In this document: positions 3,448 to 19,687 of the stretch, in pieces
Layout of the letters: every line of letters starts with the position of its first letter
Numbering within the stretch: the stretch's first letter is position 1
From: a virus
Length of the DNA: 25,805 nt
Reading direction: 5' to 3' (one strand)
Virus record (IMG/VR): IMGVR_UViG_3300006927_000068
Location: 1-25,805 of that record
Notes under the pieces: model-generated
Told to the model about the DNA's origin: nothing
The model's database searches: none
The model's input: only the letters and a program-made list of their open reading frames with translations
Program-made: the position numbers and the translations under genes

Positions 3448-5418
3448 TTATCCTACCAATCCTGTTAGAGGATTACCAGCCTGATTTATCTCACTTGGGA
3501 GACTAGCATCTCCTGTGTCTTCTGCAGAGACCCTTGGAGAGCCCTCCTGCCCACCCGCAACACCAGGACCGCCGTTCAAAATTTGAGCAATCCCCGGGAT
3601 TTCGGCGGCATCAGCTTCGGCAGTCTGCTGCTCTTCCTGATCCTTCTCAAGTGAGCGTGGATCAATATTGAGGAGCTTCATCAAGGTGCTCAAGGCTTTG
3701 TTACCTGAGAAGCGTTTCATAAAGGCCTGGAATAGTAATGGATTCACTGTTACAGCCTGTAAGAGGGCCATAGATTTTTGGAAGTCCTGAGACTTCGCCA
3801 AGACTGCAGATAATCCTCGAGCAGTGAAAGAGCAAGAGGAGGCAAATTGGGCAAAGCGTTCAGGGGCACTCATCTGACTTAGAAGGAGAGCAGATCTGGT
3901 ACCAATAGCATCTACTACCATCTGACTATCGAGATCGTCGGCATTCTGCATTAGGAGCATCCAGCTCTTTCGGATGAGTTGATCTATTAAACCCGTCTCC
4001 AGATTGCCGATTATGCCATCTAATGTTACGGCCCTTGACTGTTGGGAAGCGACAATCTCTGTAGCTTTCACCTGCTTTGCCGATACCTGTCCAAGGGCGA
4101 TTTCATTGGTCAGGGCGGCTTCCTGAAACTCTCTAATCAATACTCCAAGGGTTTGTAGAGCATCCTGAGGGACTTGGCCCTCTGTGACAGTTTCCAGCAC
4201 TTTTGCATTCGCTGGCAACGTTTCATTCACCACTAAGGTGGAGCCCTGAGGAATGCCGCCCGATACGTCAGAGGAATCATCCAGTGCAAAGGCCCTCAAC
4301 TGTTTGATACCCCAAACTGCTGCTAAACCACCATCTAAGATGAGGTTGAACATCTCGTTTATGGCCAGGTTAAGAGGGCTAGCATGATCATAGATGGCTT
4401 TGTGCCATGTGCTGAAGGGGACATTGATCAAGGGATGAACAATGAAGGGGCTTTCTTGGTGCCAAAAAGGATTGTCCTCGGGTTTACGGAGTACAACCCG
4501 ATCATTGCCAATTGCCCACCTCTGATTCTTCTTAACTGCTTGGCCGTCCTCATTCAAGACAGTGCCCCAGCACTCATCTATGACAATCTTCTTACGAAAT
4601 CCTGGAGGGTCATTTTCAGATTGGCCTCTCCGCGTCTCTGCCCGTTTGTGCTCATGCTCTTTGTGGGTATCTACACCTTTGAGAGTCATTAAGGCATTTT
4701 TATCATATATACCCTGTTCAGCCAATTCCTCAGCCCGACTCCAATCTACCTCTACCCGATGAATCTCATAAAGGCCAGCTCCAGAAGGATCTTGATAGAA
4801 GTCTTCTGCAGCAATGAGGTCAACCAGCAGGCGCCAAGAGGAGAACTCTTGAGTACCAAGGGATTCGGAGGGAGGTTCGAATTCCTCTGTCTCAATATTA
4901 AACGCAGGTTCGCCACGTTCAACAAAGAACCGCCTCTCAGTCACCTGCCGGCCATGAACTTTTAGTATGATTGTTGATTCAAGAAGCCCAACCTTGGAAG
5001 CGTTGGAAAGAACGGTGTCCAGTGCGATCGTCTTCTCATCCTGTCCGGTGGGGATAGAAGAGAAGTAGCACATAAGGAGCGCCCGCACCTCCTCGGGTGC
5101 GATCGGCAACTGGACACCGCGGCCCATCTCAACCTGAAACCAATCTCCGAAGGAGGTCATTCCCCTCTGAATGAGGGCGGCAAACTGCTCTACCGAAGTA
5201 GCAACTTTGGGAACAAATTCAGCAGATTGTCCGTCTTGCTTATGAGTCCAATCTTGCAGACCCATATAAGCATCAACATTTATCTTGTTAAGCTCTAGAC
5301 GGCGCTTCCGCGCATCTTCGGCTTCTTTCTTATAGCCCAATGTGAGATTGATTAAAGAGGGGCCGTTAGGATCAGGGTGTATATCGGCACCAGGCTTCTT
5401 AGCGGCGGCTTCTACCAT
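3448..5418 (-). CDS. Portal protein (head-tail connector)
   Basis: 656 residues. The portal forms the dodecameric ring at one vertex of the head through which DNA is packaged and ejected. Portal-like features are an N-terminal segment around residues 58-105 (HKQDGQSAEFVPKVATS...FQVE), which resembles the start of P22-like and other large portals; a central region with ASPLNLAINEMFNLILDGGL; and a long helical C-terminal region with SAKQVKATEIVASQQS, similar to the stem/wing helices of portals. It follows terminase and one small gene in the same operon, the usual order. The start at 5418 lies inside the end of the zinc-ribbon gene (20-base overlap). The C-terminus is acidic and Gly-rich. The identification rests on pattern and order, not on an alignment. 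Confidence 0.85.
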   Translation of the reverse strand: MVEAAAKKPGADIHPDPNGPSLINLTLGYKKEAEDARKRRLELNKINVDAYMGLQDWTHKQDGQSAEFVPKVATSVEQFAALIQRGMTSFGDWFQVEMGRGVQLPIAPEEVRALLMCYFSSIPTGQDEKTIALDTVLSNASKVGLLESTIILKVHGRQVTERRFFVERGEPAFNIETEEFEPPSESLGTQEFSSWRLLVDLIAAEDFYQDPSGAGLYEIHRVEVDWSRAEELAEQGIYDKNALMTLKGVDTHKEHEHKRAETRRGQSENDPPGFRKKIVIDECWGTVLNEDGQAVKKNQRWAIGNDRVVLRKPEDNPFWHQESPFIVHPLINVPFSTWHKAIYDHASPLNLAINEMFNLILDGGLAAVWGIKQLRAFALDDSSDVSGGIPQGSTLVVNETLPANAKVLETVTEGQVPQDALQTLGVLIREFQEAALTNEIALGQVSAKQVKATEIVASQQSRAVTLDGIIGNLETGLIDQLIRKSWMLLMQNADDLDSQMVVDAIGTRSALLLSQMSAPERFAQFASSCSFTARGLSAVLAKSQDFQKSMALLQAVTVNPLLFQAFMKRFSGNKALSTLMKLLNIDPRSLEKDQEEQQTAEADAAEIPGIAQILNGGPGVAGGQEGSPRVSAEDTGDASLPSEINQAGNPLTGLVG

Positions 5419-5640: not shown

Positions 5641-7167
5641 TTAACTGGCTCTGAAACGATATGTTGGACGGGGAATTTTTCGGCCAAGCTTAGTCGCCAT
5701 TCGTAACGCACGGATTGGTGCCTCATAAGAGATCCAGTAACCCAAAGCGTCTGAAGTATGGGTCCGTTGAAAATATGGATCACGGGCGTTGTAGGTCTTC
5801 TTGATTCCACCTCTCCCATCTCTTAATACCTGCTCCATATCTGCGATTAGCTCTACACACTGTGGATCTAATTCAAGGTTGATTTGGGCCTCTGCTGATC
5901 GACACGCTAAATTCAAGGCGTTTACTCGATCCGGTACTGGAGGGTTTGACTCCGGAACTTTCATTCGCAAAGGTGCGCCATAGTGTCTCATCTCATTGGC
6001 TATAACAGAATAGTTAGTACGGTTTGATTGAGAATGCCGGGCCTTACCAGTGGCATCTCCATGAACCCAGATTTCGGCATAATGCTGGGTATGTACGTCA
6101 TAGAACATCTGACACATATCTGGGATAGAACCTTCACTCAGAACCAGTTCCCTATGTACACGGAATAGCCCAGATGATTCGCGTTGGCCGATCAAAGAGA
6201 CCATAGGCTCAACGTTGAAGTCCCAAATCCACGCTAGAGGTCGACGTAGGGAGATTTCTGGCTGCTCCTTCACGTTCAGTTGTCGGTTGAAGGAAGGATA
6301 AGCACGAGCACCAGCCATCCCTGGAAGCCATTCCCCCTCGAGCCTAATTCTCCGAGCTGGGGAGCCTGGGGGATAGATGGCCTCCAGTCGGGCTATTTCC
6401 TCCCGATCAATGTGGGGGTTGTCATAGATAGAGGCCCCAAACACCATCGCGTGTTTCAAGTCACCCGATTGAAATGGCACCAGGATCTTAGGGAACACCC
6501 ACGACACTCCTCCGATTTGCCCTTCGGGTGGTAGGATGGTGATAGTATGGAAAGTACGCAATCGTCTCGCGCCCACTCGTATCGCACATTCCTCAACAAT
6601 ACCTTCGTCGTGCTCTTCGTCGAAGTGGACTGCATCTTTCTCAGCTCCTTGATACTTCTTTCGGCCAGTCTCCGCAGACTTAAATCCTATAATAGAACCG
6701 TTCTTCAATTTCAGAACCTGATCAGACACCCTCCACTCTGCGATCTCTCTATCAGGGATAAACGGTGGGTGCTGTCCAGCCGCGACAAAGCCATTGTCAA
6801 AGTATTTCGGTTGTATAACATCACGGCTTGTAGGAAAGTCGAGAGCCGAGACCCACAGTGAGGCGCTTCGGTCTTTAACTGAGATAGGTGATCCCGCAGC
6901 GCCGACATGGCGCACCTCGTTTGCGGCCAACCCAAACCTGGCCAAGGCCGCTCCGCAATATGCCCCTGCATCGCTTTTTCCTGACCTGTTCGCGGCAACT
7001 AACCAGTTCTCATAATATTCCCTGCCAAGCACAGAGTCGATAAACGCCTCTTGTTTAGCGTGCGGCATGAAGTTGAATAAGGGATCATCTGCTCTCCTAC
7101 GAAGCAGTTCATTCATCATGAGGAGTTCTAACTCCTTCCCCTCACGGTCGGCAAAAGACAAACTCAT
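5641..7167 (-). CDS. terL: Terminase large subunit (packaging ATPase and nuclease)
   Basis: 508 residues from the start at 7167. It translocates DNA into the procapsid and cuts it. Motifs (numbered from this start): Walker A AANRSGKS at 58-65; Walker B AVHFDEEH with D183-E184-E185; then the RNase H-like nuclease acidic residues D316 (IWDFNVEP), D371 (VHGDATG) and D473 (TSDALGYW). I prefer the ATG at 7167 because AAAGGGG lies seven bases upstream. An in-frame ATG at 7209 would add 14 residues but has no close ribosome-binding site and lies against the predicted transcription start. It is the first gene of the minus-strand late operon, followed by the zinc ribbon and portal. The nuclease and ATPase are both complete. 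Confidence 0.93.
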   Translation of the reverse strand: MSLSFADREGKELELLMMNELLRRRADDPLFNFMPHAKQEAFIDSVLGREYYENWLVAANRSGKSDAGAYCGAALARFGLAANEVRHVGAAGSPISVKDRSASLWVSALDFPTSRDVIQPKYFDNGFVAAGQHPPFIPDREIAEWRVSDQVLKLKNGSIIGFKSAETGRKKYQGAEKDAVHFDEEHDEGIVEECAIRVGARRLRTFHTITILPPEGQIGGVSWVFPKILVPFQSGDLKHAMVFGASIYDNPHIDREEIARLEAIYPPGSPARRIRLEGEWLPGMAGARAYPSFNRQLNVKEQPEISLRRPLAWIWDFNVEPMVSLIGQRESSGLFRVHRELVLSEGSIPDMCQMFYDVHTQHYAEIWVHGDATGKARHSQSNRTNYSVIANEMRHYGAPLRMKVPESNPPVPDRVNALNLACRSAEAQINLELDPQCVELIADMEQVLRDGRGGIKKTYNARDPYFQRTHTSDALGYWISYEAPIRALRMATKLGRKIPRPTYRFRAS

Positions 7168-7193
7168 TTCATAACCCCTTTCTGTAACCAGAA

Positions 7194-7207
7194 GAACATG
7201 GTTGTTC
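7194..7207. promoter_or_regulatory. Palindromic operator candidate, copy 1 (GAACA-N4-TGTTC)
   Basis: GAACATGGTTGTTC is a perfect 5-base-arm palindrome. It lies 12 bases beyond the -10 box of the terminase-operon promoter, so it falls inside the first transcribed bases, where a repressor would block initiation or clearance. The same palindrome with different central bases occurs at 7430-7443 and 10321-10334. Confidence 0.6.
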
Positions 7208-7219
7208 ACTTGTCCCTAT

Positions 7220-7225
7220 ATTATA
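7220..7225 (-). promoter_or_regulatory. Promoter -10 for the terminase/portal operon
   Basis: The minus strand carries a perfect TATAAT here in GGGGTATAATATAGGGAC. No strong -35 is visible at 16-18 bases; TTGTTC at 20 bases is the nearest match, so the promoter may need an activator or a phage factor. Transcription would start near 7213, leaving a 5' leader of about 45 bases before the preferred terminase start. Confidence 0.55.
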
Positions 7226-7466
7226 CCCCATAACGAACAAGGGAGGAACAACATTCCTGGTGTTTGAAATTTAGTGAGATTGGCCACGGCACGTGGCAAA
7301 AATCGTGCCAACTATGTATACCCCCACCCACCATGTTGATCACAATATCGTGATCGAAAAAACAACACATAGGTCAGCAATGCTGATTCATTTCACCCAG
7401 TTTATACCCATATATTACCCATCAAGACGGAACAATGATGTTCCATCAAACCATGAGGAAGTAAAA
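7226..7466. other. Divergent control region rich in different inverted repeats
   Basis: About 240 bases without a convincing gene, between the late minus operon and a plus operon. Dyads seen: GGAA-CAACA-TTCC at 7245-7257; two nested, mutually exclusive pairs, GCCACG-gca-CGTGGC (7283-7297) and GGCACG-N10-CGTGCC (7288-7309); GATCAC-N6-GTGATC at 7338-7355; TCAGCA-A-TGCTGA at 7374-7386; and the shared operator at 7429-7444. A weak rightward -10 (TATATT, 7411-7416) precedes the operator. An open frame crosses the plus strand here from 7293 but has no ribosome-binding site and I take it as chance. The region could bind several regulators or be a replication start; I cannot choose. Confidence 0.55.
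7429..7444. promoter_or_regulatory. Palindromic operator candidate, copy 2
   Basis: GGAACAATGATGTTCC, six-base arms with a four-base centre. Its core (7430-7443) is the same GAACA-N4-TGTTC as at 7194 and 10321. It lies 13 bases downstream of a possible -10 (TATATT at 7411-7416) and about 20 bases before the start of the first plus-strand gene, so it would control the rightward operon. Confidence 0.6.
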
Positions 7467-7907
7467 ATGGCAGAAAAACAGAAAATCAATGGAAACGGCG
7501 AGTTCGACCGGACAGCCGTCCAGTCAGTGAACCACGCCGGGGATGCAGCGACGTCCCACCGCACAATCAAACCCGCCGGTGTCAAAGATTATCGGTACCA
7601 GGTTTCTACAACCTACGATTTCACAGGCTGCACCCGGCAAGATTTGATGGAGGTTGCAGTAAGGGCGCTGGACGTCATTACCGCCGACGAATTTCGGACA
7701 ACCTACGCGGGAACTAAGAAAGTCGAGTCCGACCCCGCCAAAGCCCTTCGGTCAATTGACGGAGAATACAAAGTCAAGCCAATTGCAGAAAGGCTGGCTA
7801 ACCGTGGCAAGGCGAAAGATCCAGTCGAGGTCAGCAAGAAAAGCTTCTCCGGCATGGATGCCGATGAGCGGGCCGCATTCATCGAATGGGCCAAGACTCA
7901 GAAGTAG
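7467..7907 (+). CDS. Hypothetical protein, 146 residues, related to the protein at 13340
   Basis: ATG at 7467 preceded by GAGGAA eight bases upstream; the open frame extends further up to 7293 but without a ribosome-binding site. The product has a polar N-terminus, a likely strand segment (YRYQVSTTYDFTG), a helical middle and a basic stretch (ERLANRGKAKDP), and ends SFSGMDADERAAFIEWAKTQ. The last part is close to QFQAMSAEERAAFLQDANSK at the end of the 109-residue protein at 13340, and both genes directly follow control regions and are followed by a G/C-rich hairpin. I read them as paralogs. Function unknown; abundant early nucleic-acid-associated proteins would fit but this is not shown. Confidence 0.75.
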   Translation: MAEKQKINGNGEFDRTAVQSVNHAGDAATSHRTIKPAGVKDYRYQVSTTYDFTGCTRQDLMEVAVRALDVITADEFRTTYAGTKKVESDPAKALRSIDGEYKVKPIAERLANRGKAKDPVEVSKKSFSGMDADERAAFIEWAKTQK

Positions 7908-7924
7908 GGTCACAACATGGGGGA

Positions 7925-7946
7925 GGGGAGGTCTACGGGCCTCCCC
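7925..7946 (+). terminator. Purine-rich hairpin after the 146-residue gene
   Basis: GGGGAGG pairs with CCTCCCC across an eight-base loop. No T run follows, so it may act as an mRNA 3' stabiliser or a weak attenuator and not as a full terminator. Similar G-rich hairpins follow or precede several plus-strand genes. Confidence 0.4.
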
Positions 7947-7976
7947 AACTCTCCAGATTAAACCAAAGGGGTTGCT

Positions 7977-8213
7977 ATGATTACATTCGAGGAATGGTTT
8001 GCACTACCTGCCCGTATTCGCTCCCAGTTCTTTCGCGACCACGGTAGGTCACCCTCCCAACAAACTTCTTGGAAGAACCGGGGGAGGATTTCCAACGGAT
8101 CTCAGCAGCTGATCGACAACTGGCTGGCTAAGAAGGAAGGAGAGCCTCAGCCCAAGGTGGAACCCTTGAAGATCGTGATTGAGATTCACCATTACTACCA
8201 TAAGGAGAAATAA
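7977..8213 (+). CDS. Hypothetical 78-residue protein
   Basis: ATG with AAGGGG six bases upstream. The N-terminal 50 residues (FEEWFALPARIRSQFFRDHG, then SWKNRGRIS and a helix SQQLIDNWLAKKEG) could form a small helix-turn-helix-like fold, but no family is certain. The C-terminus is rich in His and Tyr (IHHYYHKEK). The next gene begins two bases after the stop, so they are one operon with the 146-residue protein. A small DNA-binding regulator is one possibility; low confidence. Confidence 0.6.
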   Translation: MITFEEWFALPARIRSQFFRDHGRSPSQQTSWKNRGRISNGSQQLIDNWLAKKEGEPQPKVEPLKIVIEIHHYYHKEK

Positions 8214-8214
8214 G

Positions 8215-8394
8215 ATGGAGCATTTGAAGCAAGCGATTCGCGACCACGCCGAGTTGGATCAACAGATTCGGCTGATGCAGCTGGAGCGCGACGGGGTGGC
8301 CCAGGTGGTCAAGCATCAACTTATCAAGAACGGAATGACCGACTGCCTCAAGGTGGACTGGACCCGCACCAGGGAGATGGTAAGCCGCAACTAG
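8215..8394 (+). CDS. Hypothetical 59-residue helical protein
   Basis: ATG at 8215, two bases after the upstream stop, with AAGGAG seven bases before it. The frame is open further upstream but this start has the ribosome-binding site. The protein is mostly helical (EHLKQAIRDHAELDQQIRLM, then LERDGVAQVVKHQLIKNG), possibly a short coiled coil. It is the last gene of the short plus operon and is followed 14 bases later by a strong terminator. Function unknown. Confidence 0.6.
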   Translation: MEHLKQAIRDHAELDQQIRLMQLERDGVAQVVKHQLIKNGMTDCLKVDWTRTREMVSRN

Positions 8395-8407
8395 CAACAC
8401 CACAAGG

Positions 8408-8434
8408 AGGGGCGGCTTCGGCCGCCTCTTTTTT
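8408..8434 (+). terminator. Rho-independent terminator with a TTCG loop
   Basis: GGCGGC-TTCG-GCCGCC, extended by outer pairs and followed by six T. The TTCG tetraloop makes it unusually stable. It ends the short rightward operon and separates it from the convergent minus-strand gene that ends at 8437. Confidence 0.9.
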
Positions 8435-8436
8435 GT

Positions 8437-8862
8437 TCAAATTTTGAGCGCCCTAGTAGGACCATGCTGTCCAGTAGGACCATGCTGCTCTACTTCTTCT
8501 TCCTCCCCTACTTCTACAACCTCCCCTACTAGGACCATGTTATCAGATGTTGCATCTAACATCTGTTTTCTCATATCCTCTAACTTATGCATCAAATCAG
8601 CGTCGGACATCTCATGCACGTGGACGTGTACATTCTGATCGATCTCCAACTTCTCGTGGAAGCCATATAGTTTTGACACAATGGTCAAGGCTTGCGCCCA
8701 TCTATCAGGATATTTGTTCGCAAACGCTTGGATGGATTGTATGGTGGGGGCTGCCCCCAGTATTTTCTCAAGCACATCGAGAAACGGCTCCCGGTTGAAT
8801 CGTTGGAGCTTGGCCCTAACGTCAGCCGCGGTCGCTTTAGGTGCTGAATGTCTAGGAGGCAT
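8437..8862 (-). CDS. Probable terminase small subunit
   Basis: 141 residues. Residues about 25-100 (EPFLDVLEKILG, YPDRWAQALTIVSKLYGFHEKLE, then a HVHVHEMSDADLMHKLEDMR segment) resemble the end of phage small terminases and related DNA-recognition subunits, where a helical pair around a KLhGhhEK motif is followed by an SDeeL helix. The N-terminus is basic. The tail is acidic (VEVGEEEEVEQ) and ends in a two-copy QHGPT repeat encoded by an 18-base tandem repeat. The family call is pattern-based and moderate. If right, the small subunit is separated from the large subunit and transcribed from another promoter. A DNA-binding regulator is the alternative. Confidence 0.5.
   Translation of the reverse strand: MPPRHSAPKATAADVRAKLQRFNREPFLDVLEKILGAAPTIQSIQAFANKYPDRWAQALTIVSKLYGFHEKLEIDQNVHVHVHEMSDADLMHKLEDMRKQMLDATSDNMVLVGEVVEVGEEEEVEQHGPTGQHGPTRALKI
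8455..8487. repeat. Tandem direct repeat in the end of the probable small terminase gene
   Basis: AGTAGGACCATGCTG occurs at 8455-8469 and 8473-8487, a period of 18 bases. On the minus strand it encodes QHGPT twice. A partial third copy (ACTAGGACCATG) lies at about 8528. Repeat number is likely variable between relatives. Confidence 0.8.
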
Positions 8863-8897
8863 CGCGGACAGTTACCAATCTTTGTTACCGGAAATTT

Positions 8898-9143
8898 TTA
8901 GCTCTTGCGAGCTTCTAGTTCTGCCTCGTTGTTAGCCATAAGCCATTCGAGCAAGAGGGATTTGTTTGTGAACCAGTGGCCGTTGGGGAGCTTGGCTGCG
9001 GGGAGGAGACCCTTGTGTATCCAGTCATAGATGGTGGTATCTGAACGACCGAAGAACTCGGCTATTTCCCGAGCACCTTCCATAGAGAGTCCTGAGTCGC
9101 CACCGTTTATGAGATGGGGATCACCCTTGCGCCACTTGGTCAC
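8898..9143 (-). CDS. Helix-turn-helix DNA-binding protein, excisionase/MerR-like
   Basis: The domain AREIAEFFGRSDTTIYDWIH, then KGLLPAAKLPNGHWFTNKSLLLEWL, is a typical HTH_17/excisionase-type winged helix: two helices, the recognition helix TTIYDWI, then the wing NGHWFTNKSLL. The start is uncertain. GTG at 9143 has GAGG nine bases upstream and overlaps the upstream gene by 23 bases. ATG at 9197 (99 residues, with GGTGAG upstream) would overlap it by 77; ATG at 9083 would give only the domain. Likely a small regulator or recombination directionality factor; there is no integrase in the window, so a regulator is preferred. Confidence 0.65.
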   Translation of the reverse strand: MTKWRKGDPHLINGGDSGLSMEGAREIAEFFGRSDTTIYDWIHKGLLPAAKLPNGHWFTNKSLLLEWLMANNEAELEARKS

Positions 9144-9273
9144 TTGTTTTGTCCTCACAAGTTTTCTTGAGTTGTTCAAACTTTGTGCGTACCTCATCTG
9201 TCATCTCACCATTCCACAGGTCACGGATGGAGAAGTTGAGGGGAGGACGCACTTGGGTTGTGAAGTTATCCAT
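9121..9273 (-). CDS. Hypothetical 50-residue protein
   Basis: Starts MDNFTTQVRPPLNFSIRDLW at 9273, with AAGAGA rather far upstream. An in-frame extension to 9342 is possible but has no ribosome-binding site. The product is charged and helical (EMTDEVRTKFEQLKKTCED). It is the first gene of the leftward mini-operon that continues with the HTH protein. Function unknown. Overlap with the longer form of the HTH frame leaves some doubt which start is used for each. Confidence 0.45.
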   Translation of the reverse strand: MDNFTTQVRPPLNFSIRDLWNGEMTDEVRTKFEQLKKTCEDKTSDQVAQG

Positions 9274-9562
9274 TTTTGGATTTTGTCTCTTTGTGGAGAG
9301 GAAAGCAAGAGAACTTTTTGGGTAATGTAATCTAACAATCAATCAATTTATGAAAATCACAAGGGGGGGTACGAGGGGGGTCGGGTGATGAGGTTTAGAG
9401 GGGGGGAGGGGGGACTAGAAAAAAAAAAAAAGATTAATATAAATACCACTAGCTCCCACATCCCAGTGGGGCATACCCCCCGATGCACCTTGTACCCCCC
9501 ATTGGGATTTTGGTTAATTGTTGGTATAATTGTTAACCACATGAACATCTAGGATCACTAAA
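9274..9562. other. Divergent intergenic region with G runs and an A13 tract; possible origin or control region
   Basis: No gene is convincing here. The plus strand has G runs of 7, 6, 3, 7 and 6 between 9363 and 9413, enough for a G-quadruplex, followed by 13 A at 9419-9431 and an AT-rich stretch. GGGGGGTAC (9364-9372 area) is complementary to GTACCCCCC at 9492-9500. Towards the right lie the promoter at 9502-9530 and the direct repeat TAATTGTT. Strand-switching between two operons, a G-rich track and an easily melted A tract would fit a replication origin or a regulatory hub; I cannot decide. Confidence 0.5.
9502..9530 (+). promoter_or_regulatory. Promoter for the long rightward operon
   Basis: -35 TTGGGA (9502-9507), 17-base spacer, -10 TATAAT (9525-9530), with TGG before it giving an extended -10. 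GGTTAA and TTAACC flank the -10 as inverted arms, and TAATTGTT is repeated on either side of it, so a regulator probably binds here. The first gene starts about 30 bases downstream. Confidence 0.75.
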
Positions 9563-9880
9563 ATGATCGACAAACTGACAATGAGGGCAATGAGTGATTA
9601 TGTAGCAGAACAGCATCTTGCGTGTTCTAATGAGAAGGGGGAGAGGATTAAGAGGTTGTTATGGCTCGGCGTGACTACAGCTGAGGTTGCTAGGGAGGTG
9701 CAAATAAGGGAGAGTTTTGTTGCCAGAGTTAGACAGGGAAGAGCTATGTGGGCTATTCAATGGCCTAACGGCTGGATCGGCCCGATGCCTCATGGACGAG
9801 ATAGGAAGATACGAGCCGACGGCTTTGTAAAGATGGATGACGTGAGAGAGGTTTTGAAGGAGATGGAAGATGGGTCGTAA
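9563..9880 (+). CDS. Helix-turn-helix-like protein, tandem paralog 1
   Basis: 105 residues. The segment RIKRLLWLGVTTAEVAREVQ, then IRESFVARVRQGRAMWAIQWPNGWIGPM, has the look of a small HTH (helix, turn, recognition helix ESFVARVRQG) followed by a conserved I.WP.G..G tail. The same pattern occurs in the next gene. It is the first gene after the rightward promoter, a usual place for a regulator. Overlaps the next gene by 11 bases. No clear purine-rich ribosome site before the ATG (GGATCACTAAA). The paralogy is seen; the DNA-binding role is inferred. Confidence 0.7.
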   Translation: MIDKLTMRAMSDYVAEQHLACSNEKGERIKRLLWLGVTTAEVAREVQIRESFVARVRQGRAMWAIQWPNGWIGPMPHGRDRKIRADGFVKMDDVREVLKEMEDGS

Positions 9881-10289
9881 GCTGTATTTGTTGACCGACG
9901 AGGAATGTAGAGATATTAAGATGTGGATATGGAAAGGAGTGAGGTATGCTCGCATAGCTGCTCAGTTCAACCTATCTAAGGGGTATATATCACAGATTTC
10001 TACAGGTGCCACCAAGGGGGAGATTGAATGGCCTGATGGGTCGCTTGGAAGACTATCGAGGCATCGAGCTTTGGAGATTGAGAAAGACAGGAAGATCAGT
10101 CCTACTCATGTTGTGGAACTGGAGAGGGATTTGCCCACACCTGATGGAGGAATGACTAGAGAGGAGCGAGACAAGTTTAGGGCTGAGTATGAGAAGGTTG
10201 AGATGGACCTACAGACTGCTTCGGATGAAGAGTTGAGGGCCATCCTTCAACCTAAGAAGGGTAAAGCCAGGGGTAAAAAAGGGGGTTGA
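9870..10289 (+). CDS. Helix-turn-helix-like protein, tandem paralog 2
   Basis: 139 residues. DIKMWIWKGVRYARIAAQFN, then LSKGYISQISTGATKGEIEWPDGSLGRL, aligns with the preceding protein over the whole HTH-like region, so the two came from a tandem duplication. A helical, charged extension follows (TREERDKFRAEYEKVEMDLQ) and the tail is strongly basic (KKGKARGKKGG), likely nucleic-acid binding. Starts inside the end of the upstream gene (GAAGATGGG). A promoter with an operator lies just after its stop. Role as a transcriptional regulator is probable but unproven. Confidence 0.7.
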   Translation: MGRKLYLLTDEECRDIKMWIWKGVRYARIAAQFNLSKGYISQISTGATKGEIEWPDGSLGRLSRHRALEIEKDRKISPTHVVELERDLPTPDGGMTREERDKFRAEYEKVEMDLQTASDEELRAILQPKKGKARGKKGG

Positions 10290-10314
10290 ATCTTGGGAAA
10301 ATTTGGTGCATAAT
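10286..10314 (+). promoter_or_regulatory. Promoter before the 60-residue gene
   Basis: -35 TTGAAT (10286-10291), a 17-base spacer and -10 CATAAT (10309-10314). Transcription would start near 10321, exactly at the palindrome GAACAAATGTGTTC, which therefore sits over the start site. Confidence 0.6.
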
Positions 10315-10320
10315 AAGGGT

Positions 10321-10334
10321 GAACAAATGTGTTC
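10321..10334. promoter_or_regulatory. Palindromic operator candidate, copy 3
   Basis: GAACAAATGTGTTC, five-base arms around AATG. It overlaps the predicted start of transcription of the promoter at 10286-10314. The arms are identical to those at 7194-7207 and 7430-7443. Confidence 0.65.
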
Positions 10335-10361
10335 ATTGTCACTAAACCAAGGATGGTTCAG

Positions 10362-10544
10362 ATGGCCAAGATTATAAACCTTGCCAATGCAAGGGAGATA
10401 AAGAAGGTCAAAAACCTCTTTCAGGATCTCATCCAGCTTCAAGTTGAGTTCAATACTGGCACCGGCAGATTCGATCCTTCCATCTCCACGGAGGATAAGA
10501 TTAGACGAATGCTGGACAAAATGAGCCCCGCTGATAGGGAGTAA
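10362..10544 (+). CDS. Hypothetical 60-residue protein
   Basis: The ATG at 10362 (MAKIINLANAREIKKVKNLF) has AAGG about nine bases upstream. ATG at 10353 or GTG at 10329 are in-frame alternatives; the latter would lie in the operator palindrome. Helical and charged, with the end TEDKIRRMLDKMSPADRE. A short hairpin (CGCTC-gtata-GAGCG, 10546-10560) follows the stop. No family recognised. Confidence 0.55.
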   Translation: MAKIINLANAREIKKVKNLFQDLIQLQVEFNTGTGRFDPSISTEDKIRRMLDKMSPADRE

Positions 10545-10572
10545 ACGCTCGTATAGAGCGCTGGTAGCAGCT

Positions 10573-10773
10573 ATGAAAACAGATATTGAGATGGATGACC
10601 TAATTAAAGCCGTAGCTAAGGCCGTACGGGAGTCAGAGGCTTGGTCAACATTCTGGTCTGAAGAGGACAGCGTCATCATGGCTGAAGCTGCCGTGAAGGC
10701 TATACGTAAACATCTGCAATCTGATGCTACCCTGATCCGCCCGAGCTTGGCTGCTCTTGCACGAAGGAGATAG
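10573..10773 (+). CDS. Hypothetical 66-residue protein
   Basis: ATG at 10573, with a second in-frame ATG at 10594 that could also serve; neither has a strong ribosome-binding site. The protein is Ala-rich and helical (DDLIKAVAKAVRESEAW, SVIMAEAAVKAIRKHLQ), with a basic end (ALARRR). It is followed three bases later by the next gene, which supports it as part of the operon. Function unknown. Confidence 0.5.
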   Translation: MKTDIEMDDLIKAVAKAVRESEAWSTFWSEEDSVIMAEAAVKAIRKHLQSDATLIRPSLAALARRR

Positions 10774-10776
10774 AAG

Positions 10777-11139
10777 ATGTCTGATGAATTCACCGAAGCC
10801 CAAGTCCACGATACTAAGCAGGGAAATACCTATCTGGAGATGATTAGTTTTACGAGCGGTGATGTCGGCGTAGAAATGGGATTGTCCCCAGAAGATGTAC
10901 AGCACTTTGCTGATGCCTTCGAAGACTTCAAGACGGAGTATGTCACAGCTATGAAGCTGGAGCCGGCTCATGAAGAGCCCCAACAAGTTGTGTTGACGCT
11001 CACACTATCCATGATGAAAGATCTCTTGTTTCATCTCAAAAAGCACCAGACACTCGCCCACGTAGTGCCGATGCTGGAGCTGGCGGTAATGACCTTGTCT
11101 GATGAGGTGTCGGCAGTACCGTTGAAGAGTATTCACTGA
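10777..11139 (+). CDS. Hypothetical 120-residue acidic protein
   Basis: ATG with GGAG eight bases upstream. Acidic; the first half is mixed strand/helix (NTYLEMISFTSGDVGVEMG, then SPEDVQHFADAFEDFKTEY), the second half is a long helix pair (VVLTLTLSMMKDLLFHLKKH). No recognisable domain or membrane segment. It belongs to the run of small early plus-strand genes whose products in other phages are often host-takeover proteins; that role is inference from position only. Confidence 0.7.
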   Translation: MSDEFTEAQVHDTKQGNTYLEMISFTSGDVGVEMGLSPEDVQHFADAFEDFKTEYVTAMKLEPAHEEPQQVVLTLTLSMMKDLLFHLKKHQTLAHVVPMLELAVMTLSDEVSAVPLKSIH

Positions 11140-11151
11140 TCGTCAGCAGTT

Positions 11152-11194
11152 TCCCTTGTGTAAGAGCAAGGGAGATTGGTGCCGATCCTGGCAC
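11152..11194 (+). other. Two adjacent small hairpins in a 71-base gap
   Basis: TCCCTTG pairs with CAAGGGA (11152-11173), and GTGCC with GGCAC (11179-11194). Neither is followed by a T run. They lie between two plus-strand genes and just ahead of the ribosome-binding site GGGAGAAG, so they may shape mRNA stability or translation. Confidence 0.4.
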
Positions 11195-11210
11195 TACATG
11201 GGAGAAGAAG

Positions 11211-11432
11211 ATGGAAACCAAGTCTGTTCTTTTTGAATTCGAGCGCGAGACAAAGGGTGCCATTCGTTATCGAGAGATCAACCCTGATACGGAGGAAGTC
11301 GTTACTATACAGAATGGCGCCTCTGTGGGGACGATCTACATAAGGAAATCGGCCCTCAATGGAGAGGTTCCGATGTTTCTCCGGATGGTTCTGGACGGCT
11401 CTGGGGACGCCTCCTTCAAGGGGTTGAACTGA
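11211..11432 (+). CDS. Small hypothetical protein with a conserved GTIYIRKSAL-type motif
   Basis: 73 residues, ATG with GGGAGAAG just upstream. A compact beta-rich protein: VLFEFERETKGAIRYREINP, then VVTIQNGASVGTIYIRKSAL, then PMFLRMVLDG. The pattern of an N-terminal strand pair followed by GT[IL]YI.K.AL is one I have seen in short hypothetical proteins of phages and bacteria with no known role. The last bases (GTTGAACTGATGACC) begin a direct repeat that recurs at 11716. Confidence 0.7.
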   Translation: METKSVLFEFERETKGAIRYREINPDTEEVVTIQNGASVGTIYIRKSALNGEVPMFLRMVLDGSGDASFKGLN

Positions 11433-11448
11433 TGACCAGAACCCCTGA
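11423..11448 (+). repeat. Direct repeat, left copy (26 bases, 25 identical to 11716-11741)
   Basis: Covers the end of the 73-residue gene and the first bases after it, starting GTTGAACTGATGACCAGAAC. The matching copy covers the end of the 78-residue gene and the start of the zinc-ribbon gene. The two copies bracket the 78-residue gene. Confidence 0.85.
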
Positions 11449-11476
11449 ACCGATGCTCCTCGAAGTCACCATCTAG
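11432..11476 (+). pseudogene. Probable 14-codon remnant of the zinc-ribbon gene start
   Basis: ATG at 11432 opens MTRTPEPMLLEVTI and then stops. The first codons equal those of the zinc-ribbon gene at 11725 (MTRTSEM...), as does the overlap with the upstream stop. I read this as the broken start of that gene, left behind when the 78-residue gene was inserted or duplicated between. It could be translated as a tiny peptide. Confidence 0.5.
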
Positions 11477-11488
11477 GAGGTTTGAGCC

Positions 11489-11725
11489 ATGCGGAAGGTC
11501 TATCGCCTGTCATTCGACTTTAGGGAGTTGGATGATCTCATCGACTTTTGGAAATCCTTCCAAGCCACGAACCGCGGCCCGTCTACGTCGGCCAATGACC
11601 TGAGTACCTGGGACACCTGTGGTCCGTGCTACAAAGACACGATACACGACCAAGGCAAGAGCGTTCAGGAGTTCTTGATCCGAGAGGCTAACATTGATAA
11701 CGGTCGGCCCCTGGAGTTGAACTGA
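11489..11725 (+). CDS. Hypothetical 78-residue protein, apparently an inserted gene
   Basis: ATG with AGGAGG about ten bases upstream. RKVYRLSFDFRELDDLIDFW is followed by a Trp/Cys region (STWDTCGPCYKDTIHD) and a helical tail. One CxxC pair only, so a full zinc site is not evident. The gene is flanked by 26-base direct repeats, which suggests it was added between the 73-residue gene and the zinc-ribbon gene. It ends with a TGATG overlap with the latter. No family recognised. Confidence 0.65.
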   Translation: MRKVYRLSFDFRELDDLIDFWKSFQATNRGPSTSANDLSTWDTCGPCYKDTIHDQGKSVQEFLIREANIDNGRPLELN

Positions 11726-11741
11726 TGACCAGAACCTCTGA
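11716..11741 (+). repeat. Direct repeat, right copy
   Basis: 25 of 26 bases match 11423-11448. It spans the stop of the 78-residue gene and the start of the zinc-ribbon gene, keeping the same stop/start overlap as the left copy. Confidence 0.85.
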
Positions 11742-11946
11742 GATGCAAGCTGTCATGGACGGGATGTTTCCTGAGCAGGCGGCGAACCGTGCGGCGGGCA
11801 ATTGTGCCACTTGTGCCCGTCCCATCGATGCCTCGCTGTTTGAAGGCCGGCCACAAATCTACCGAGATGAGTACCTCATCGCCGGGATGTGTCCGGCCTG
11901 CCAGGACAGGGCATTCACCTCATCTGAGGAGGACAATCTCGAATAG
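11725..11946 (+). CDS. Zinc-ribbon protein, 73 residues
   Basis: Two CxxC pairs, CATCARPIDASLF and MCPACQDRAF, about 27 residues apart, form a treble-clef or ribbon-type zinc site. Its ATG overlaps the stop of the upstream gene. It resembles the 97-residue protein at 12570 in the order CxxC, PI...F..G..., CPxC, so the two may be distant relatives. A hairpin follows the stop. Function unknown; such small ribbons often contact host RNA polymerase or nucleic acid, but nothing here proves it. Confidence 0.7.
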   Translation: MTRTSEMQAVMDGMFPEQAANRAAGNCATCARPIDASLFEGRPQIYRDEYLIAGMCPACQDRAFTSSEEDNLE

Positions 11947-11958
11947 GTTCATAGCAGC

Positions 11959-11983
11959 CTCGGGGTAGGGACGCCCCGAGTTT
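11959..11983 (+). terminator. Hairpin after the zinc-ribbon gene
   Basis: CTCGGGG pairs with CCCCGAG across an eight-base loop and is followed by TTT. It is strong but the T run is short, so partial termination or mRNA 3'-end protection is likely. The next gene's ribosome site (AAGGAG) is 15 bases on. Confidence 0.5.
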
Positions 11984-12006
11984 GGTATCAACCAAGGAGA
12001 TATACC

Positions 12007-12372
12007 ATGCCTAAGATTGTAATCAACAACGCCTATGGGGGCTTTCAGCTCTCAAATGCAAACATCGAACGGTATGCTGCGATCAAGGAGATTGTACTAT
12101 ATAAGAAAGAAACCAAGAACTGGACTCATTGGCATTGGGAAGCTGATATGTCGGACACCAGCTTCTTTTCCAAATACGACGTGGAGCGGGACGACCCTGC
12201 CTTGGTGCAGGTCGTCGAAGAGATGCTACACTCCGGCGAGGTGACAGACCTTCGAGTGGTGGAAATTCCAAACGACGTGGAATGGGAAATCAAAGAGTAC
12301 GATGGCTTCGAGCACGTTGCCGAGGTTCATCGGACCTGGCACGCTCTAATGGATGAAGCTTCCAGAGGATAA
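12007..12372 (+). CDS. Conserved hypothetical protein of the YGGF...VEIPxDVxW type
   Basis: 121 residues, ATG with AAGGAG nine bases upstream. It contains NNAYGGFQLSNANIERYA near the start, then ERDDPALVQVVEEM, then LRVVEIPNDVEWEIKEYDG and HVAEVHRTW. I recognise this pattern from many hypothetical proteins of bacteria and phages, where it has no known function. The fold is probably a compact alpha/beta domain. It sits in the early small-gene region with a good ribosome site and is almost surely real. Confidence 0.8.
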   Translation: MPKIVINNAYGGFQLSNANIERYAAIKEIVLYKKETKNWTHWHWEADMSDTSFFSKYDVERDDPALVQVVEEMLHSGEVTDLRVVEIPNDVEWEIKEYDGFEHVAEVHRTWHALMDEASRG

Positions 12373-12376
12373 CCAC

Positions 12377-12478
12377 ATGAAACTCATAGTCGAGTTCGTA
12401 GGGATGTGCCTCTTCTTCCTAGCACTATACGCTCTAAGTATGATCGTATGGGCCTGGACGCAGCCGATGCCGCAGTGA
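12377..12478 (+). CDS. Small single-pass membrane protein, 33 residues
   Basis: Starts MKLIVEFVGMCLFFLALYAL and ends MPQ. A hydrophobic span of about 20 residues with few charges marks a membrane helix. GAGGA lies eight bases upstream. Its stop overlaps the next start (TGATG). Four bases after the preceding gene's stop. Possible roles include a small inhibitor of host functions or a holin accessory; none is shown. Confidence 0.55.
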   Translation: MKLIVEFVGMCLFFLALYALSMIVWAWTQPMPQ

Positions 12479-12558
12479 TGTGGATCGCCTTGACTATATT
12501 CCTGCTCGGAGTGGCGGTTGGGATGAACATCTCAATTGCCTTGTTCCATATTTTATAG
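12478..12558 (+). CDS. Small membrane protein, 26 residues
   Basis: Starts MWIALTIFLLGVAVGMNISI and ends FHIL. Nearly all hydrophobic, one transmembrane helix. It is coupled to the 33-residue gene by an A-TGATG overlap, so the pair would be made together. Such very short frames can arise by chance; the hydrophobic pattern and coupling argue for a gene. Confidence 0.45.
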   Translation: MWIALTIFLLGVAVGMNISIALFHIL

Positions 12559-12569
12559 GAGAAACCAAG

Positions 12570-12863
12570 ATGGTTAGACTCCCCGACGGTGTGTATGCAA
12601 TGAGTGTGGATGGGTTCCTCGATCTTATCACAAACGACGGCCCTGATGAGCCACTAAAAGAGTGGCTTGGGACTCCCCCGAGTTCGTGTGACATCTGCCG
12701 TAAGCCGATCACCGACAGCTTTATCGATGGTCGTACTGTGCATGGCCCCTGGGCTAATATGTGCCCAACCTGCTTCAAGCGTGAGGGTGTGGGACTGGGG
12801 ACCGGCCACGGCCAGCATTACGGCATGACGCCTACTGGTGGCTTCGTGAAGATAGGAGGCTAA
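12570..12863 (+). CDS. Conserved zinc-binding phage protein, 97 residues
   Basis: ATG at 12570 with AGGAG nine bases upstream; the frame is open further up but without support. Motifs: CDICRKPITDSFIDGRT, HGPWANMCPTC and GLGTGHGQHY. The pairs of CxxC and the conserved GLGTG.GQ.Y end match a hypothetical protein family I know from phages and bacteria. It probably binds zinc; the role is unknown. The next gene starts two bases after the stop. Confidence 0.75.
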   Translation: MVRLPDGVYAMSVDGFLDLITNDGPDEPLKEWLGTPPSSCDICRKPITDSFIDGRTVHGPWANMCPTCFKREGVGLGTGHGQHYGMTPTGGFVKIGG

Positions 12864-12865
12864 GC

Positions 12866-13162
12866 ATGACCCTTTATACAGACACCTATGAGGTAGTACA
12901 GTTTGGCGAGTGCGTTGCTGACATAGATGTGAGGTTTCAGTATAGTGTGTTTCCTGGTCGCCCGGCTCAGATCTATGGTCCGCCTGAGCGATGCTACCCT
13001 GAGGAGCCTCACGAGATTGAACTGGAGGAGATTGAACTCCCGTGGGACAAGGGATGGAAGGTGATTTCGACTAAACATCCCTTGTACGACACCCTTGAGG
13101 AGATGTTCAACAACGTTGAGGAGGCCATCCTCCTGGACAATGCCGTTGCTGAAAGGTGGTAA
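12866..13162 (+). CDS. Hypothetical 98-residue acidic protein
   Basis: ATG with AGGAGG eight bases upstream, two bases after the previous stop. Features: DIDVRFQYSVFPGRPAQIYG, a Pro/Glu-rich middle (EEPHEIELEEIELPW) and a helical end (LEEMFNNVEEAILLDNAVAE). Reads like a folded phage protein but no family is certain. It is the last gene before a strong hairpin, so it ends the transcript that begins at 9530. Confidence 0.7.
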   Translation: MTLYTDTYEVVQFGECVADIDVRFQYSVFPGRPAQIYGPPERCYPEEPHEIELEEIELPWDKGWKVISTKHPLYDTLEEMFNNVEEAILLDNAVAERW

Positions 13163-13177
13163 TCCAGGGTTGAACAT

Positions 13178-13220
13178 GATCCCGCTGGGCTGTCCAAAAT
13201 TCGGACAATTCAGCGGGATC
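13178..13220 (+). terminator. Long hairpin with a nested inner stem
   Basis: GATCCCGCTG (13178-13187) pairs perfectly with CAGCGGGATC (13211-13220), and inside it TGTCC pairs with GGACA. CTTTTC follows within about 15 bases. It closes the upstream operon and lies 43 bases ahead of a new promoter. Confidence 0.65.
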
Positions 13221-13262
13221 ACCGCAACCCCTGCTTTTCATTAGTCAGGATTAAAAAACAAT

Positions 13263-13291
13263 TTGATTCTTGACGTTTGGTCATGTATGAT
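13263..13291 (+). promoter_or_regulatory. Promoter before the 109-residue gene
   Basis: -35 TTGATT (13263-13268), 17-base spacer, -10 TATGAT (13286-13291). Start of transcription would be near 13298. TGCGG-TT-CCGCA (13301-13312) and a degenerate operator copy lie directly on the start. Confidence 0.7.
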
Positions 13292-13294
13292 TGG

Positions 13295-13308
13295 TAACAA
13301 TGCGGTTC
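13295..13308. promoter_or_regulatory. Degenerate operator copy 4
   Basis: TAACAATGCGGTTC differs from GAACA-N4-TGTTC at two arm positions. It lies three bases after the -10 of the 13263 promoter. Because of the mismatches it is only suggestive. Confidence 0.35.
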
Positions 13309-13339
13309 CGCAAACAACTATGAAGAAGGAGTTAGTGTA

Positions 13340-13669
13340 ATGACTATAGTCTCTGCAAAATTCGGTGATGGCGATCCGATCAAGGTCAACTACGAATTCG
13401 GAGATGACCTGGCCGGAGCCTCCAAGCTGTTCGGTGACGAAACTGTGTTTGCCAACTACAAGGCCAACGCCATCGTTGCTTTGCAGGGTTTCGTCCGTGG
13501 GATGCTGAAGGCTGAGAAGTCGGCCAAGGACATCACCGGGGCCGTTGCCGAGTGGAAACCGGGAGTCCGCAAGAAAGGCAAGACTCCGCAGGAGAAGCTG
13601 CGCGAACAGTTCCAGGCCATGTCGGCTGAGGAACGTGCGGCCTTCCTCCAGGACGCCAACTCCAAGTAG
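13340..13669 (+). CDS. Hypothetical 109-residue protein, related to the one at 7467
   Basis: ATG with GAAGGAG about ten bases upstream. N-terminal strands (DPIKVNYEFGDDLAGASKLF), a helix (YKANAIVALQGFVRGML), and a basic linker (PGVRKKGKTP) then REQFQAMSAEERAAFLQDAN. The end and the strand/helix order match the 146-residue protein at 7467. Both have their own promoter and both are followed by a G-rich hairpin, suggesting high expression. A structural nucleic-acid-binding role is possible; I do not recognise the family. Confidence 0.75.
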   Translation: MTIVSAKFGDGDPIKVNYEFGDDLAGASKLFGDETVFANYKANAIVALQGFVRGMLKAEKSAKDITGAVAEWKPGVRKKGKTPQEKLREQFQAMSAEERAAFLQDANSK

Positions 13670-13726
13670 GTTGGTGAGTTCGGCCCTGCTGCATTAAATC
13701 CCCCAGTGTAGTAGAGCCAGCCCCGG

Positions 13727-13761
13727 GTGGGGAGAGGGTTTCTTGGTTTACCTCTCCCCAC
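13727..13761 (+). terminator. Strong 11-pair hairpin after the 109-residue gene
   Basis: GTGGGGAGAGG pairs perfectly with CCTCTCCCCAC across a 13-base loop, then TTTGG. It has the same G-rich stem style as 7925-7946, 16073-16100 and 17374-17414. Probably partial termination or protection of the 3' end of an abundant mRNA. Confidence 0.6.
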
Positions 13762-13770
13762 TTTGGTCCC

Positions 13771-14073
13771 ATGTTAAAGGTGTTTGTACCCAACAAGTCT
13801 GCTCACAATTTCAGCGATGCGCTGAGGTTTGGGGAACTTGTGTTCCTAACGTCTGGGACTGTGAATAAGTATGCGATAAATTCCCTGTATCGAGAATTAT
13901 CAGAGGGACTGCAAAACAGTTCTGAGCAGGATCACTTGATGATCTCATCACTGGCTATTTTGAACAGTATTTGTTCTGCCATTTTTGCTAGGAAGCACGG
14001 CAAGGTAAATTACCTACTATTTAGGGATGGGAAGTACATCAGTAGGACAGTCGATATAGACGCTTTGATCTAA
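13771..14073 (+). CDS. Hypothetical 100-residue protein
   Basis: ATG at 13771 directly after a hairpin; no ribosome-binding site is visible, so the true start may be later. Sequence includes LRFGELVFLTSGTVNKYAIN and SLYRELSEGL, then a helix ISSLAILNSICSAIFARKHG and strands NYLLFRDGKYISRTVDID. No family. It lies 20 bases before the P-loop gene. Two inverted repeats with GAAC/GTTC-type arms (13833-13846 and 13962-13976) fall in the coding sequence and may be coincidence. Confidence 0.5.
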   Translation: MLKVFVPNKSAHNFSDALRFGELVFLTSGTVNKYAINSLYRELSEGLQNSSEQDHLMISSLAILNSICSAIFARKHGKVNYLLFRDGKYISRTVDIDALI

Positions 14074-14093
14074 CATCCTTGAGGGAGGATTTG

Positions 14094-14696
14094 ATGCTCA
14101 ATAAGCCCATCCTAATAGCCGGTGCGCCAAGATCAGGCACATCCATGTGCGCTCGGATTCTACATTCCCAAGGTGTGTGGACTGGAGACTGTAAGAAGCC
14201 AAACAAGTTCAACCCCTATGGCTTCTTTGAAAACAACACCTTCACAGCGATGTTGAATCGCCACTACAAAGGCGAGTTCCCCCTTCAATGGGAGAACATA
14301 TTCGAGTCGTTGGAGTTCCAAGGTTGGACACCAGATCAACCTTGGATGTTCAAACACTGGAAACTCCTTCCCACCTGGAAGATATGGGACGCTATGTTCC
14401 CCGATGCCCTTTGGCTTCTCCCTTACAGAAATGAGGGAGACAACCTTAGGTCATTAGAGAACATGAGATATGCCAACCCCTTCGCTGTGTTTAAGGAATG
14501 TAAGGAGAGGCAGAACGAAATCGCTGATAGGTGCACCCACAGGTTTGTGGATACCGATAAGATTATAGGGGGATGGATTTCTGAATTGCAGAACATCATC
14601 TGCCTGCCACAAATCAAGGAGCCTTCTATTTTAAGAGGGAGGGATTGTATAGATTTGGTTATATGGAACCGGAAAGGACTGGTTAAAAGTGACTGA
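14094..14696 (+). CDS. Sulfotransferase-like P-loop protein
   Basis: 200 residues from the ATG at 14094, which has GGGAGG five bases upstream (a TTG start at 14079 lacks support). The N-terminus KPILIAGAPRSGTSMCARIL is the 5'-phosphosulfate-binding loop of the PAPS sulfotransferase family, and KKPNKFNPYGFFENNTF follows in the way seen in that family (NP.GY.E). Such proteins transfer sulfate from PAPS, or are related P-loop folds that have lost it. The substrate in a phage is unknown; modification of a host surface or small molecule is speculation. It overlaps the nuclease gene by eight bases. Confidence 0.65.
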   Translation: MLNKPILIAGAPRSGTSMCARILHSQGVWTGDCKKPNKFNPYGFFENNTFTAMLNRHYKGEFPLQWENIFESLEFQGWTPDQPWMFKHWKLLPTWKIWDAMFPDALWLLPYRNEGDNLRSLENMRYANPFAVFKECKERQNEIADRCTHRFVDTDKIIGGWISELQNIICLPQIKEPSILRGRDCIDLVIWNRKGLVKSD

Positions 14697-15678: not shown

Positions 15679-16022
15679 GGCAACAAGAGATGAAACTCAA
15701 CAAAACTAAGACGTATCAAACAGCTACATTTGACCAATTCGAAGCCTTTGCTTCCAAGGTGATGGCTCGAAACAACTGGACTGAGGGAGTACTATCCACG
15801 GAATTAGGATTCTCATCTAATACTGTCAGCGGATGGAGAAGACGCAAGAAGGTTCCTATGACTGCCCTGTTGGCGGTTAAATGGTTGGCTAGGGAACTCT
15901 TTGAGGCAAGAAATTTGACCGGCTCAGAGGCCATGACTTGCCTGATCTTAGTAACTACGCACACTACAGATGAGCGAGACCTGAGTATAAAACTCGCTAA
16001 GATGGCTAAGCGAAACGGGTAG
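15675..16022 (+). CDS. Helix-turn-helix protein, 115 residues
   Basis: ATG overlaps the nuclease stop (AATGAG). LSTELGFSSNTVSGWRRRKK is a Cro/CI-type helix-turn-helix, with recognition helix SNTVSGWRR. The rest is helical (TALLAVKWLARELF, DERDLSIKLAKMAKR). A second in-frame ATG (15690) would remove five residues. Probably a phage regulator; its target could be one of the palindromes described here, but I cannot link them. Next promoter lies just after its stop. Confidence 0.7.
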   Translation: MRQQEMKLNKTKTYQTATFDQFEAFASKVMARNNWTEGVLSTELGFSSNTVSGWRRRKKVPMTALLAVKWLARELFEARNLTGSEAMTCLILVTTHTTDERDLSIKLAKMAKRNG

Positions 16023-16034
16023 CGGGATCATCAG

Positions 16035-16063
16035 TTGACAACTGGTGTTTAATGTGCAAAAAT
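16035..16063 (+). promoter_or_regulatory. Promoter candidate before the Sak4-like gene
   Basis: Perfect -35 TTGACA (16035-16040) with a 17-base spacer to AAAAAT (16058-16063), a weak -10. The start would fall near 16070, directly at a hairpin that forms the 5' leader. Confidence 0.5.
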
Positions 16064-16072
16064 GAGCAATGT

Positions 16073-16100: not shown

Positions 16101-16125
16101 CCTAAGAACGAGGGGAATAAAACAA

Positions 16126-19686: not shown

Positions 19687-19687
19687 A

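Follow-up and report, generated by a model that had tools for sequence, protein, structure and literature searches.

The window analysed here is the whole viral record IMGVR_UViG_3300006927_000068, of 25,805 bases. It encodes a terminase (5641-7167, minus strand), a fusion of a ParB-type protein to a DNA methylase, and a replication module that includes a protein of the uracil-DNA-glycosylase/DNA polymerase A type. Two palindromes in this DNA are described. Motif A, GAACA-N4-TGTTC, lies in the leaders of three transcription units and is a candidate operator. Motif B is a 17-bp palindrome, YGYYCRAAWTTYGRRCR, which takes the form TGTTCAAAWTTTGAACA in relatives; it is dispersed through the genome and is proposed as the site at which the ParB-methylase fusion loads. 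The features that bear on motif A are listed first.

7194-7207, minus strand: motif A copy 1, GAACAACCATGTTC on the minus strand, 12 nt past TATAAT and 26 nt before the terminase start codon
7220-7225, minus strand: putative -10-like TATAAT serving the terminase (late) operon, read from the sequence
7411-7416, plus strand: putative -10-like TATATT of the short plus operon, read from the sequence; kept in relative L005
7429-7444, plus strand: motif A copy 2 with 6-bp arms, GGAACA-ATGA-TGTTCC; 16/16 in L005
7467-7907, plus strand: small protein 3' of motif A copy 2, its C-terminus resembling the 13340 family
10286-10314, plus strand: putative promoter TTGAAT-N17-CATAAT (CATAAT at 10309-10314), from a promoter scan
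10320-10335, plus strand: motif A copy 3 with 6-bp arms, TGAACA-AATG-TGTTCA; 16/16 in relative L084
13295-13308, plus strand: near-copy of motif A, TAACAATGCGGTTC, with two mismatches, not significant; also in L084, where the entire stretch is 97% identical

Relatives found through the terminase, at 57-62% identity, reach up to 45-47 kb; no named phage has a terminase match that reaches 60% identity. The two nearest relatives cover different parts of the window, L005 the 7430 site and the terminase side, L084 the side from 10321 to 20542. Both come from one and the same metagenome, and they may be two pieces of one phage.

Motif A occurs in exactly three perfect copies in the window, at 7194-7207, 7430-7443 and 10321-10334, as the initial annotation had stated. 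All three are intergenic, and intergenic DNA makes up 8.0% of the window by our own gene map. No copy with one mismatch was found in the window. At two or fewer mismatches there are 15 copies, compared with 12.0 +/- 3.6 in shuffled sequence, which leaves the copies at 13295 and 9543, with two mismatches each, without weight as evidence on their own. Both were rejected as additional sites, the first having originally been proposed as a fourth promoter copy and the second being lost in L084. As a control for post hoc choice of the motif, every 5+5 palindrome family with gaps of 0 to 12 was counted in 200 shuffles, and at least three intergenic copies of any such family appeared in 1 of the 200. 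It would be most improbable for the three palindromes to be an accident. Three copies anywhere of some 5+5 family do arise in 10% of shuffles, and a second three-copy family is present in the window, in coding DNA. Against this, every copy of motif A is intergenic and two are conserved, while the second family turned out to be part of motif B, which is also real. The conservation of the 7430 copy, described next, largely refutes the chance explanation.

This conservation is footprint-like. Across the divergent region 7168-7466, the window and L005 agree in 197 of 302 alignment columns. Positions 7429-7444 are identical at 16/16, compared with 19/41 (46%) in the upstream flank and 13/22 (59%) in the downstream flank; the arms are unchanged at 12/12 bases, with no arm base changed or compensated. 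Other blocks of at least 16 bases equally conserved in this region are limited to 7293-7313 (TGGCA-N7-TGCCA) and 7369-7385 (CAGC-AAT-GCTG). These two blocks are also inverted repeats, in the control region between the terminase and 7467 genes. The 10321 site is intact in L084 (16/16), where the leader is kept and the two following genes are absent; the element thus travels with its promoter and not with a gene. Motif A is restricted to the clade of the window. More distant terminase relatives lack it, save for one copy in L028, and a family-wide element was rejected on that ground. The motif is not scattered in the late genes of L005, whose 20-kb contig has one perfect copy, the homologue of 7430.

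The distance from the last base of the -10-like hexamer to motif A is 12 (TATAAT), 13 (TATATT) and 6 (CATAAT) nt, within the 6-13 bases reported earlier for promoter calls that are themselves weak. The distance from the motif to the start codon, at 26, 23 and 27 nt, is as constant as the -10 distance.

We somewhat favour the reading of motif A as a clade-specific 14-bp DNA operator for a small dimeric phage protein of the helix-turn-helix (HTH) type, with the protein encoded at 15690 as best candidate. A phage-encoded dimer would sit on the motif with one monomer on each GAACA arm, the arms lying about one helical turn apart. At two plus-strand promoters, those before 7467 and 10362, the motif would overlap the start of transcription; in this strain it would also stand at the terminase promoter. 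The bound protein would block or modulate RNA polymerase at the start site, the direction of regulation being presumed in this scheme. The initial annotation had postulated one phage regulator acting on early and late genes. Of that proposal, a shared sequence-specific site at two or more plus-strand starts is supported, with the 7430 and 10321 copies both conserved. The remainder fared less well: the terminase copy is degraded in L005, the 9543 near-copy is gone in L084 and 13295 is at chance level. Because the terminase copy is altered in L005, a regulator of early and late genes is firm on two sites, and on the third only in this strain.

Among known systems, motif A is close to operators of the lambda/434/P22 type, which are read by repressors of the XRE (Cro/CI HTH) kind. 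The likeness consists in a 14-bp dyad with short arms about one helical turn apart, as in the geometry of 434, a centre that looks uncontacted, a position at promoters, restriction to a clade, and a gene for a Cro/CI-like HTH protein in the same genome. As in 434 and lambda, the palindrome overlaps promoter elements or the start site, putative in our case. In such operators the central bases are read indirectly (PMC3317979). Lambda/434-type operators differ in forming a tandem set between divergent repressor and cro genes, whereas motif A consists of single sites at three separate leaders, and the divergent region 7168-7466 lies between the terminase and the small 7467 gene, without the lambda-like tandem arrangement. 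No integrase or CI-peptidase protein was seen in this partial genome. Motif A would work as phage repressor operators do and, at most, adds one more member to their kind.

That motif A is instead an operator read by a regulator of the host seems improbable. Phages are known to borrow host regulators, LexA for one. The arrangement GAAC-N6-GTTC is unlike the LexA motifs that turned up in the literature, GAAC-N4-GTTC, GTTC-N7-GTTC, TTAC-N3-GTAA and GGTT-N10-AACC, and terminase relatives at 57-62% identity, which may have other hosts, lack motif A. The likeness to the Gram-positive LexA (SOS) box, GAAC-N4-GTTC (PMC3323433), extends to the GAAC and GTTC tetramers and their order; the spacing is N6 at all three motif A sites rather than N4. 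Motif A was thus rejected as a LexA box for its spacing, a distinction that the initial annotation had drawn correctly.

Several results weigh against the operator reading. A consensus promoter scan of the window returned 8 sites, compared with 10.6 in shuffles, and since it does no better than shuffles the start sites are still putative. The terminase copy reads GTTCATTGTTGTTC in L005, with two bases changed and one arm lost. Both well-kept copies of the motif fold as leader RNA hairpins, and before genes of the 13340 family relatives have hairpins in the corresponding position, with unrelated sequence. For this last reason the main rival is an RNA stem-loop, which we regard as possible but doubtful: a stem of 5-6 bp closed by a loop of 4 nt, positioned close to the 5' end of the leader and immediately before the Shine-Dalgarno sequence, that stabilises the mRNA or binds a protein. 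The leaders at 7430 and 10321 fold better than shuffles (z about -2), distant 13340-family leaders have strong hairpins of unrelated sequence (L108, L119 and L009, for example, at p <= 0.02), and these phages show a general enrichment of leader hairpins, 34 of 164 reaching p <= 0.034. The distance from hairpin to start codon is similar throughout, about 18-30 nt, and stem-loops that stabilise mRNA from its 5' terminus are known (work cited in PMC3997798). A structural role, on the other hand, has no need for identical arm sequence at three leaders, nor would it require that the arms at 7430 be kept at 12/12 bases next to flanks of 46-59% identity; the terminase leader does not stand out from shuffles in stability (z -0.5), and no hairpin is present in its homologue in L005. 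The DNA operator and the RNA stem could both be true.

Strong leader stem-loops of unrelated sequence were observed before 13340-family genes at eight loci (L108, L112, L115, L119, L094, L009, L109 and L118). The comparison of leaders supports the stem-loop as a probable old feature of the 13340 gene family; the 7467 gene, judged by its C-terminus, seems related to this family. The 7467-7907 protein had no PHROG match and only sub-threshold Pfam matches, and scans with the 7467 and 10777 proteins returned no relatives beyond the set already found.

Three loci in the window encode HTH proteins that could bind motif A.

8898-9197, minus strand: HTH_17 (MerR/excisionase-like) protein, Pfam E 1.7e-11
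9563-10289, plus strand: two overlapping paralogous HTH genes (9563-9880 and 9870-10289), alternative candidates
15690-16022, plus strand: Cro/CI-like HTH protein of 110 aa that may bind motif A; matches PHROG 4779 (transcriptional regulator, E 5e-5) and, weakly, Pfam HTH_26 (E 0.033)

The Cro/CI-like protein 15690-16022 is the best candidate for the binder in the proposed operator mechanism. It is confined to the same clade as motif A, and the L084 relative, at an overall identity of 55%, keeps the start of the recognition helix (SSN), as expected with an operator that is unchanged. Its predicted structure is a six-helix model with pLDDT 70. Two points count against it: a fold search with this model gave no significant match, and what connects the protein to motif A is their common clade restriction together with geometry, which makes it a candidate. 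No relatives of 15690 were found in cellular genomes or named phages, and none of 9870 in named phages. That the binder is instead the 9563/9870 pair or the HTH_17 protein at 8898 is a less likely alternative, although these genes are encoded beside motif A sites, with the 10321 copy directly 3' of the 9870 gene, and roughly the first 45 residues of 9870, HTH included, are far better kept in L084 than the remainder. Relatives of 9563/9870 are present in G004 and L060, both of which lack motif A, and relatives of 8898 in 16 loci without it; moreover, the recognition helix of 9563 has diverged in L084 and the operators have not. Of the HTH genes that the initial annotation named as possible regulators, then, 9563/9870 and 8898 have relatives in phages without the motif, and the remaining one (15690, given there as 15675) shares its clade restriction. 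The order given here is a ranking of candidates and not an identification. The HTH genes at 9563-10289 are 53-60% identical to L084 158-851, while the flanking DNA is about 88-97% identical, which suggests that the pair may have undergone fast divergence or exchange.

Motif B surfaced while palindromes shared within relatives were being sought. Its copies in the window, and the protein proposed to bind them, are as follows.

3573-3589, no strand: motif B copy CGTTCAAAATTTGAGCA, consensus match
8434-8450, no strand: motif B copy TGTTCAAATTTTGAGCG, where two genes converge; G004 has a syntenic copy
13191-13207, no strand: motif B copy TGTCCAAAATTCGGACA, consensus match; kept in L084
18386-19657, plus strand: fusion of a ParB/Noc-type CTPase and its DNA-binding domain to an N6_N4 DNA methylase, proposed to bind motif B; from Pfam, profile search and AlphaFold
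20744-20760, no strand: motif B copy CGCTCAAATTTTGAACG, consensus match
24969-24985, no strand: motif B copy CGTCCAAAATTTGAACG, consensus match

These five exact matches to YGYYCRAAWTTYGRRCR (3573, 8434, 13191, 20744 and 24969) occur every 4-8 kb, where shuffles give 0.03 matches to a consensus drawn partly from the window sites themselves. An unbiased search for repeated 15-bp palindromes placed motif B first in the window, with six copies where shuffles reached two at most. The motif is symmetric, and its sites lie both between and inside genes. It is spread every 2-9 kb in the window phage and at least ten others, related phages having 3-12 copies; G004 has seven copies of TGTTCAAANTTTGAACA at two or fewer mismatches, including two in the terminal repeat, and in G006 TGATCAAAWTTTGATCA occurs six times at no more than one mismatch. 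The copies are spaced more evenly than random sites in the window, in G025 and in G026 (for the smallest gap, P about 0.005 each), and not so in G004 or G030. The 8434 copy has changed by three transitions in L005, all still within the consensus. Immediately beside that copy, at 8400-8435, a terminator-like hairpin, GGGGCGGCTTCGGCCGCCTCTTTTTT, closes the short plus operon.

The profile of the 18386-19657 fusion matches Noc and ParB structures and the DpnA/CcrM methylases; against Noc it aligns over 9-189, the Noc DNA-binding domain included. The AlphaFold model has a mean pLDDT of 84.5, with Foldseek matches to CcrM, Noc and ParB. Pfam ParB_N is found in 14 of 14 relatives of the fusion. GERR and EN..R.D boxes are present, with R53/R54, E86, N87 and R90 invariant, and the protein aligns to the ParB structure 4umk. 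By its ParB_N boxes and its Noc and ParB matches the fusion is predicted to be a ParB-type CTP clamp with a domain that reads parS/NBS sites. Phage fusions of a ParB-CTPase to an N6_N4 methylase are frequent, and the passages available from a survey of them assign no function and report no DNA site for them (PMC12704722).

Viral contigs were scanned with TGTTCAAAWTTTGAACA alone, giving 106 stretches, from which 13 records were fetched. All nine distant phages among these with at least three dispersed copies, picked by the pattern alone, encode the fusion, at 28-46% identity. None of the nine has the terminase of the window, 9563/9870 or 15690. The 9563/9870 pair had at first been favoured as the binder of motif B, since a copy in G004 lies just upstream of an HTH gene; it was dropped because the HTH proteins occur in 0/9 and the ParB-methylase in 9/9 of the pattern-selected phages. 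The recognition helix of the fusion follows the site as well. Most motif B phages have S-[AV]-G-[AG]-[VI] or a close variant, and in phages with a different helix motif B is missing or variant: it is absent with DKSNT (G005), QQPEI (G008) and SKTRI (G010), each with the fusion present, and in G006, where the helix is SAQSAV, the site has TGATC rather than TGTTC.

We consider it rather probable, from these comparisons, that motif B is the cognate, parS-like loading site of the ParB-methylase fusion. The CTP-dependent clamp part of the protein would load at motif B sites spaced every few kilobases and slide between them, carrying the methylase along the genome, and the methylase so carried would mark or protect the entire genome. 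Two results stand against this. The other four fetched records (G027, G034, G036 and G038) have 2-5 copies at two or fewer mismatches and no fusion protein, and G027, with five copies of which three are exact, is an awkward exception. A DNA polymerase is also common to all nine pattern-selected phages, so presence of the fusion does not by itself single the fusion out.

In its symmetry, dispersion and partner protein, motif B is analogous to a parS or Noc site. The parS sequence is TGTTTCACGTGAAACA, and its TGTT..AACA ends are the same in motif B, which differs in its length of 17 bp, its centre CAAAWTTTG and its spread through a 45-kb phage genome. The fusion shares with the partners in ParB/parS and Noc/NBS the ParB_N domain, the GERR and EN..R.D boxes and a Noc-like DNA-binding domain; a methylase stands in for the C-terminal dimerisation domain of ParB/Noc. 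The stoperators of cluster A mycobacteriophages are likewise dispersed in many copies through a phage genome; these sites, 13 bp long and asymmetric, are each read by a monomer and follow the direction of transcription (PMC9283540), whereas motif B is symmetric and occurs inside genes as well. In plasmid RK2, the short promoter operator of a small HTH protein, KorA, accompanies the dispersed palindrome of a ParB-family protein, KorB (PMC11790492). Motifs A and B form a similar pair, although by analogy only; the KorA operator is at the -10 and motif A instead overlaps the putative +1, and the ParB-family protein of the window phage is fused to a methylase. We mention only as speculation, and an improbable one, that A and B might be coupled, with A as the local promoter operator of a two-level circuit like that of KorA/KorB.

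Motif A would provide a short operator candidate for an environmental phage clade that is otherwise unreadable. Motif B counts for more, accompanying in distant phages fusions of no assigned function. It is a genome-wide palindrome that tracks with the ParB-methylase fusion, probably as its loading site. If it is the true site of the fusion, the question of fusion function turns into simple experiments on binding, loading and methylation, and recognition helices that change with the sequence would be part of its value.

Two further observations were made. G017 (L103-L105), a relative without the ParB-methylase, has, in place of motif B, ten copies of a different dispersed palindrome, GAACC-N3-GGTTC. 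In the window, DNA polymerase A is encoded in two frames (19932-21596 and 21937-22839), separated by an open reading frame of 115 aa (21593-21940) with Cys/His pairs; from its sequence, this splitting frame looks like a homing-endonuclease insertion.

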